A stretch of 52,863 bases of DNA from Acidobacteriota bacterium (GTDB lineage Bacteria; Acidobacteriota; Thermoanaerobaculia; UBA5066), in contig JAKOVQ010000006.1 in NCBI GenBank assembly GCA_029781975.1, positions 1-52,863 on the forward strand, written 5' to 3'. Of the stretch, positions 12,845-14,619 are shown in pieces. Under the pieces are notes generated by a model that searched no databases, was not told the origin of the DNA, and saw only the letters and a list, made by a program, of their open reading frames with translations. A program made the translations under genes and the position numbers. Within the stretch, counting starts at the first letter, position 1. Each line of letters opens with the position of its first letter.

Positions 12845-13174
12845 TCAGCCGAGGAACGCCGCGAGAGCCTGCGGCTGGAACCCGACGAGGAGGCGGCGCC
12901 CCGACCTCAGGATCGGCGCGCGGAACCCGCCGGTCGGCCCCCGGAGTTCGTCGGGGGTCGCGTCGCGGGCAGCGAGCGTACGGGAGCTCTTCCCCTTCGC
13001 GACGACCACCTCGTCGACGGAGGCGAGGAGCGTCCGGACCTCCTCCTCGGTCAGCGGCGCCGACCGGGCCTGGCGCGTCTCGACGACCTCGGTCTTCTCG
13101 CTCTGCAGCACCTCACGGGTGCGCTGGCAGCTGGTTCAGCCCTTCCGTTCGTAGAAGAGGTCGATGGTGGCCAT
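12845..13174 (-). CDS. ArsC-family selenoprotein with in-frame UGA (UxxC active site)
   Basis: Small thioredoxin-fold redox protein of the ArsC/Spx-like family, 109 residues. ATG 13174 has an excellent Shine-Dalgarno (GGGAGGAG, 6 nt away). The frame reads MATIDLFYERKG, then TGA (13138-13136), then TSCQRTREVLQ and on without interruption to 12845. Read as selenocysteine, the TGA gives U13-T-S-C16, exactly where this fold has its CxxC redox motif. Downstream motifs agree with the family: VVVAKGK, then the GPTGGFRAPILR segment holding the cis-Pro, and LLVGF. A hairpin follows the UGA with the loop 18 nt away. It lies 29 nt after the M20 peptidase gene, last in the operon. Translation from an ATG after the TGA would lose the redox motif. 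Confidence 0.85.
13103..13138 (-). promoter_or_regulatory. Candidate bacterial SECIS hairpin
   Basis: Immediately after UGA 13138-13136 the mRNA can pair GCACC (13122-13118) with GGUGC (13112-13108) around a CGUGA loop. The stem is extended by CA/UG and CUG/CAG with two small 5'-side bulges. The loop begins 18 nt after the UGA and has G in its second position, within the published consensus for bacterial SECIS elements (loop 16-37 nt downstream, G in the first two loop positions). Confidence 0.7.
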
Positions 13175-13203
13175 CCGGCTCTCCTCCCGTGCGGGGCGCG
13201 CCG

Positions 13204-14619
13204 TCACGGCGCCGTGGCGAACTCGCGGACGATCGCCTTCATCCGCTCGACGCCGTCGACGAAGTAGACGACGTTGATCCGCTCGTTGACGTTGTGGATC
13301 TTCCAGGCGTCGGTGAAGTTCACGTTGAAGGTCGAGAGGCCGTAGCAGCGGTAGCCGCGCGCCCTGAGGACCTGGCAGTTCGTGTACGCGCCCGTCAGGA
13401 CGTAGATCCCCACCTCGGCCCCCTCCGGGTCGAGCCCCAGGACGGTGGCGACGGCGTCCCAGGCCCTTCCCGTCCGCGGTGTCGCCACGCTGTCGGACGT
13501 GAGGTACCGGAGCCGGAGCGTCACGTGGCGGGCGGCCGCCCACTGCTGCATCTCCCTCCAGCGGGGCGCGACGGGGCTGCCGGGAAGGAGCGTCGCGACG
13601 ACCTCCATCCGGTCGCCGTCGGGGCTCTTCTGGACGTCTCCCGTGTAGTACATGTCGCGCAGGAGCGCGCGGTAGACCTCCGGGATCCCCTCGTTGAAAC
13701 GACCCGCGGCTATGGCCTTCCTCGCGTCGATCATCTGCCGCCCCCAGACGTCCGACCGGGAGGGGCCGATGAACGCCAGGAAGTCCTCGATCTCGGGCGT
13801 CACGTGGTACGGGTAGCCCGGCATCCGCTCCTCGAGCGACCTGGCGAACGCCTTCAGGTCGGCGGGCTTGCCGTAGCCGTACGCGGAGACGATCCCCTTC
13901 TGCAGGACCTCGACGCCGAACCGGGCGATGTGGTCGGTCACCACCTCGTTCACGCCCCCCTCGTTGAAGACGTCGGTGACCCCGGCGAGGAGATCCGGGC
14001 GATGCTGGAGGATCCAGCCGATCCCGATCGACGGGTCGAACGTCTCCTCCCCCGTCTCGGCCACGAAGACCACGTCGTGGGCGGGGACGATCCCGTCCCT
14101 CTTCAGCTGGGCCATCGCGAGGAAGTGGGCGATGCCGAGGTCCTTCATGTCGAGGGCGCCGCGGCCGACGAGGTAGAAATAGGACTCGCCCGTCCCCATC
14201 TCCGCCGCGAAGGGAGGCTTCTGCCACTTGGCCACGTCGCCGGGAGAGACCACGTCCATGTGGTGGAGGAGGAGGAGCGCTCCCTCCCGGCTCCGGCCGG
14301 CGAGCCGGGCGACGACGATGCGCCGCTCCGGGTCGTCGCCGACGACCTCGTACGGGATCCCCTCGCAGCCGAGGAGGCGGGTCCAGAACGCCACCGCTTC
14401 CGTCGTCCGGCCCGGGGGGTTCGTGGTATCGATCCTGAGGTACTCGCGAAGGAGGCCCACCGCCTCCGTCTCGAGAGCCGCCTTGACGTCGAGGTCCCGG
14501 ACCTGGACGGCGCCCCTGAAGCGGACGACGAGCCGGGGGGCCGCGACGAGGGCGGCCGCGATCAACGTCGCGCCTCCGTAGAGGGCGAGGCGGCGCCTCG
14601 TGTTCCGGGAGAGGCTCAC
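13204..14619 (-). CDS. M20-family metallopeptidase (471 aa)
   Basis: Zinc-dependent exopeptidase or amidohydrolase of the M20/ArgE/carboxypeptidase G2 type. An N-terminal hydrophobic segment (residues 11-32) suggests export or membrane anchoring. Metal and catalytic residues are visible: LLLHHMDVVSPGD (His120, Asp122), GRGALDMKD (bridging Asp157), ETGEET (catalytic Glu191, metal Glu192) and a late His in WKIHNVNER. The GTG start (14619-14617) overlaps the TGA of the upstream membrane protein gene as GTGA, so it is translationally coupled. Periplasmic peptide or acyl-amino-acid hydrolysis is likely; the substrate is not evident. Confidence 0.85.
   Translation of the reverse strand: MSLSRNTRRRLALYGGATLIAAALVAAPRLVVRFRGAVQVRDLDVKAALETEAVGLLREYLRIDTTNPPGRTTEAVAFWTRLLGCEGIPYEVVGDDPERRIVVARLAGRSREGALLLLHHMDVVSPGDVAKWQKPPFAAEMGTGESYFYLVGRGALDMKDLGIAHFLAMAQLKRDGIVPAHDVVFVAETGEETFDPSIGIGWILQHRPDLLAGVTDVFNEGGVNEVVTDHIARFGVEVLQKGIVSAYGYGKPADLKAFARSLEERMPGYPYHVTPEIEDFLAFIGPSRSDVWGRQMIDARKAIAAGRFNEGIPEVYRALLRDMYYTGDVQKSPDGDRMEVVATLLPGSPVAPRWREMQQWAAARHVTLRLRYLTSDSVATPRTGRAWDAVATVLGLDPEGAEVGIYVLTGAYTNCQVLRARGYRCYGLSTFNVNFTDAWKIHNVNERINVVYFVDGVERMKAIVREFATAP

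Follow-up and report, generated by a model that had tools for sequence, protein, structure and literature searches.

The window analyzed here, a whole stretch of 52,863 nucleotides of contig JAKOVQ010000006.1 from an Acidobacteriota bacterium, raises the question whether a reading frame that is interrupted by an in-frame TGA encodes a selenoprotein, and if so, of which kind. The frame (12845..13174, (-) strand) starts with an ATG at 13174-13172, meets the TGA at codon 13 (13136..13138, (-) strand), and continues for 96 codons to a terminal TGA at 12847-12845, so that the full-length product would have 109 residues. The purine-rich, Shine-Dalgarno-like stretch GGGAGGAG (13181..13188, (-) strand) is situated 6 nt upstream of the ATG. 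The translated frame reads MATIDLFYERKG-U-TSC...AAFLG, and the TGA thus opens a UxxC motif with the residues U-T-S-C. The last codon of the motif, TGC (13127..13129, (-) strand), encodes Cys16, the presumed resolving cysteine, which is invariant in alignment A1. This arrangement had been described in the first-pass annotation, and direct reading of the sequence confirmed the start, the TGA, the length of the remaining frame, the motif and all coordinates. The expectation that standard gene callers would report only a protein of 88 residues was also correct, as the longest standard open reading frame at the locus has 88 codons for amino acids and starts with a GTG at 13111.

An NCBIfam profile search, in which the TGA was translated as Cys, assigned the protein to NF041106, "ArsC family (seleno)protein", with 86.2 bits against a curated cut-off of 85. 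The match covered residues 4-102 of the protein and positions 1-105 of the 107 profile positions, and the UGA opened the UxxC motif. A six-frame scan of the same locus yielded 78.4 bits. A six-frame search of 197 related genomes revealed NF041106 matches in 71 of them. All 65 matches with at least 53 bits contained one stop codon apiece, and this was always TGA, while the matches below 53 bits were other Spx/ArsC-type proteins. Of the family members with a TGA among these relatives, about half had 53-84 bits and thus were under the cut-off; they are probably truncated or missed by automatic annotation. When genome contigs were searched with the single protein, one distant relative only was obtained, and a tblastn search of plasmids gave no match.

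The analysis was extended to a draw of 396 genomes from the phylum. Again, every NF041106 match above 53 bits contained one TGA, and the best stop-free matches, with at most 50 bits (e.g., L104-L106), were canonical RP-type proteins with the motif CSTC or CTTC. More distant relatives of the Spx/YffB/ArsC type have Cys at the position of the selenocysteine, and in some cases Sec. Other genomes of the phylum (loci L088, L090, L093 and L111-L117) encode an ArsC/YffB protein of the canonical RRP type, which is distinct from the family, has the motif UTSC or UTTC and contains an in-frame TGA; in several cases a hairpin follows. These Sec forms are a separate set and possibly independent gains. One wider relative (L102) has UxxS instead of UxxC, i.e., Ser replaces Cys16, and therefore the resolving cysteine is not universal.

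The fold of the protein was predicted with AlphaFold from a 44-member alignment (pLDDT 95.1, pTM 0.87), and the model has the thioredoxin fold shared by the Spx/ArsC superfamily. The nearest solved structure was Spx (3IHQ), with Z 10.6, 28% identity and 2.2 A across 88 aligned residues, followed by a Bacteroides fragilis protein related to ArsC and by YffB, and then by arsenate reductases and glutaredoxins. The invariant residues are Y8, R10, U13, C16, G61, G79, G82, R85, A86, P87, V97 and G98. The label "ArsC/Spx-like" of the first-pass annotation can be refined, as the protein belongs to the defined subfamily NF041106 and not to classical ArsC or Spx. The NCBIfam models for Spx and ArsC-related proteins scored far under their cut-offs, and the Pfam ArsC match was weak and also below the cut-off (E 3e-4).

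These results bear on two functional alternatives. As Spx is nearest both in solved fold and in sequence, the protein could be a redox-sensing transcription regulator that binds the C-terminal domain of the RNA polymerase alpha subunit. This is unlikely, because the profile scores were 22-30 bits against cut-offs of 75-152 (e.g., 29.8 bits for TIGR01617 with a cut-off of 75, and 26.3 bits for NF002459 with a cut-off of 123), the C-terminal tail of Spx is absent and its central region incomplete (109 versus about 131 residues), and the alignment places A86 onto Arg92 of Spx, although U13 and C16 fall onto the CxxC motif and R85 onto Arg91. Alternatively, the protein could be an arsenate reductase that works like plasmid-type ArsC, with an arginine triad binding the arsenate that Sec13 would attack. 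The ArsC-family fold, the weak Pfam match and the name "Arsenate reductase-like" in the literature (PMC13188914) are in line with this possibility, but the residue in front of the cis-proline is an invariant alanine (R85-A86-P87), only the equivalents of the Spx-side Arg91 and of Arg/Lys60 have been retained, and no recurrent arsenic gene cluster adjoins the gene in the fetched loci. The alanine occupies the place of Arg94 in E. coli ArsC. An arginine in front of the cis-proline is an arsenate ligand in ArsC, and its absence argues against arsenate reduction by the protein of the window, which is quite improbable.

Next, the TGA itself was considered. An alignment of 66 members was generated from the 65 matches with at least 53 bits and one Polyangiaceae locus. 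The active-site column was TGA in all 66 members, and neither Cys nor another sense codon was found at this column among them. This is the alignment of homologues that had been proposed in the first-pass annotation, which had named a sense codon other than Cys or Sec as an argument against a selenoprotein. The distribution also bears on the view that the UGA at 13138 is a real stop, and that the conserved part is either an independent protein of 88 residues starting from the GTG at 13111 or belongs to a decayed gene. That open reading frame is what a standard gene caller reports, but conservation extends to the 12 residues that precede the UGA, with Tyr8 and Arg10 being invariant, and decay would not keep one and the same stop in place in the whole alignment. 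This view is hardly credible.

A hairpin of the bacterial SECIS type was found downstream of the UGA at 13100..13131 ((-) strand). Its core stem consists of five base pairs (13122-13118 with 13112-13108, GCACC/GGTGC), and the hairpin loop CGTGA (13117-13113) has a G at position 2 and starts 18 nt past the UGA. Reading and folding of the sequence thus bore out the five-base loop, the G and the spacing given in the first-pass annotation. The hairpin had a folding energy of -12.3 to -12.6 kcal/mol when it was folded alone. The published rules for bacterial SECIS elements demand a loop of 3-9 nt, a stem of 4-16 bp, a G at one of the first two places of the loop, a distance of 16-37 nt between the UGA and the loop, and a minimum free energy of -7.5 or lower (PMC13188914). 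The hairpin fits this model with its 5-nt loop CGUGA, the spacing of 18 nt and -12.6 kcal/mol. The gene was recoded synonymously 500 times, and 46% of the recodings passed the rules for loop, spacing and energy, while 3% were equally stable. The hairpin of a single sequence was therefore rejected as a proof.

The comparison of many sequences was more informative. Each of the 52 distinct sequences formed a hairpin of higher stability than its recodings did on average. Synonymous preferences were quantified for the clade of the window (36 sequences). The core stem and the loop are formed by codons +5 to +9, counted from the UGA, and these codons had a synonymous information of 0.47-2.38 bits, whereas nearly all other codons had at most 0.37 bits, the exceptions being Ser+2 (1.40) and Leu+67 (0.72). 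Arg+7 was encoded by CGT or CGG in 34 of 34 sequences, while the usual choice is CGC, and Val+9 was encoded by GTG in 33 of 34 sequences, while the usual choice is GTC. The five core pairs were kept in 34 of 34 sequences of this clade, including a compensatory exchange from CG to GC (L080), and pairing fell to 21-59% when the partner columns were slid by 1-3 positions. Within the clade the stem varies little, and the observed covariation was reached by 11 of 500 shuffles. A second clade has a different hairpin (GCGTCCA-AGTTGA-TGGACGC), whose stem is paired in all 13 distinct sequences and also contains one compensatory exchange, from GC to AT (L029). The clades thus have different loop types, i.e., five nucleotides (CGUGA or CGGGA) in the clade of the window and six nucleotides (AGUUNN) in L026-L052, and the distances to the UGA differ slightly. 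An Rfam scan of the window and of L001 gave no match at the gathering score. Bacterial SECIS elements are diverse, and therefore this result is no argument against such an element. Judging from the sequences, the hairpin is weak evidence in one sequence and strong evidence across the family. With the UGA present in every aligned member and the constraint on synonymous sites focused on the codons of the hairpin, the comparison settles that the arrangement is not a chance feature.

The machinery for selenocysteine incorporation, for which the first-pass annotation had recommended a search and whose absence it had named as a refutation, was present completely. The genome encodes selA (425 bits, E 3e-127), selB (E 2.5e-91, over the cut-off), a tRNA-Sec with a UCA (tca) anticodon, and two selD genes (L010 and L011 on contigs C2 and C15). 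One selD has the Cys form GMGCACK in a long open frame, and the other has the Sec form SACAGUASK with an in-frame TGA. In the latter gene a hairpin loop starts 14 nt past the UGA, which is below the published range of 16-37 nt. selA was found in 177 of the 197 relatives, and its co-occurrence with the family is only weakly informative because it is nearly universal. A selA match was not found in two incomplete genomes, G133 and G144, both of which contain the selenoprotein gene. A general reassignment of UGA to a sense codon, which the one UGA that is read through might suggest, is next to impossible, because UGA is also an ordinary stop in this genome, terminating both the selenoprotein gene and the preceding M20 peptidase gene, and because the Sec machinery with its UCA tRNA-Sec is present.

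Taken together, the frame 13174-12845 almost certainly represents a true selenoprotein gene that belongs to the NF041106 family. From the UGA conservation, the machinery, the hairpin constraint and the predicted fold, all of which were observed, we infer that selenocysteine is incorporated. When the ribosome reaches the UGA at 13138-13136, the downstream mRNA hairpin would hold SelB carrying Sec-tRNA(Sec), so that Sec would be inserted instead of termination, while the UGA that closes the frame acts as an ordinary stop. In the predicted product, a thioredoxin-fold protein, Sec13 would provide the attacking selenol and Cys16 the resolving thiol. The protein is probably a Sec-dependent, glutaredoxin-like thiol oxidoreductase. 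In the manner of a glutaredoxin or thioredoxin, Sec13 may attack a disulfide or a similarly oxidised substrate, and the adduct may be resolved by Cys16 under formation of a Se-S bond, which would then be reduced by a cellular reductant. A Cys form of the family was found in none of the sampled genomes of the phylum, an indication that selenium is not replaceable by sulfur in the reaction of this family. It is tentatively proposed that the family is obligately Sec-dependent and has a substrate of its own, being neither an arsenate reductase nor Spx.

The substrate cannot be read from the genomic context, because neighbouring genes are not common beyond close relatives; clustering of the neighbourhoods over the fetched loci revealed no partner gene with a wider distribution. 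The gene directly upstream encodes the M20-type peptidase (13204..14550, (-) strand, with a tentative start; Pfam Peptidase_M20, E 1e-15). The gap is 29 nt, and the two genes are possibly co-transcribed. In the own family, the peptidase gene precedes the selenoprotein gene in four members; besides the window, its cluster (c7) is directly upstream in L055, L056 and L058. In one genus a sulfatase gene precedes and a gene for a Lon-type AAA protease follows the selenoprotein gene.

The UxxC selenoprotein family is already catalogued, and the gene of the window adds one member to it. NF041106 has been listed as "Arsenate reductase-like protein, UxxC" (PMC13188914), with reference to the Global Ocean Sampling survey, in which the entry reads "Arsenate reductase 2, cd03032, UxxC" (PMC2398784). 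The new aspects are the support for an NF041106 selenoprotein in the lineage of the window, the exclusive use of Sec among the sampled genomes, the synonymous-site evidence for the hairpin together with its two shapes, and the many relatives that remain unflagged under the curated cut-off. A gene that is missed by standard callers is thus real and widespread across the phylum, and a family with Sec and, in the genomes sampled, without a Cys form is a good system for the question of selenium versus sulfur chemistry.

Several known systems can be compared with the selenoprotein. With Spx (1Z3E, 3IHQ, 6GHB) it has the fold, the position of the CxxC motif and the R-x-P region in common, but it differs by Sec in place of Cys10, by the alanine in place of Arg92, and by the shorter central region and the missing C-terminal tail. 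With the glutaredoxin-linked ArsC arsenate reductases it shares the fold family and the position of the catalytic residue, but these enzymes have an arginine before the cis-proline, where the selenoprotein has Ala. Arsenate reductase 2 (cd03032, PMC2398784) is likewise listed as an ArsC-like selenoprotein with UxxC. The correspondence to NF041106 itself comprises a whole-length match over the cut-off, the UxxC motif and the TGA at the identical place, whereas the clade of the window genome stands apart by scores near or under the cut-off.
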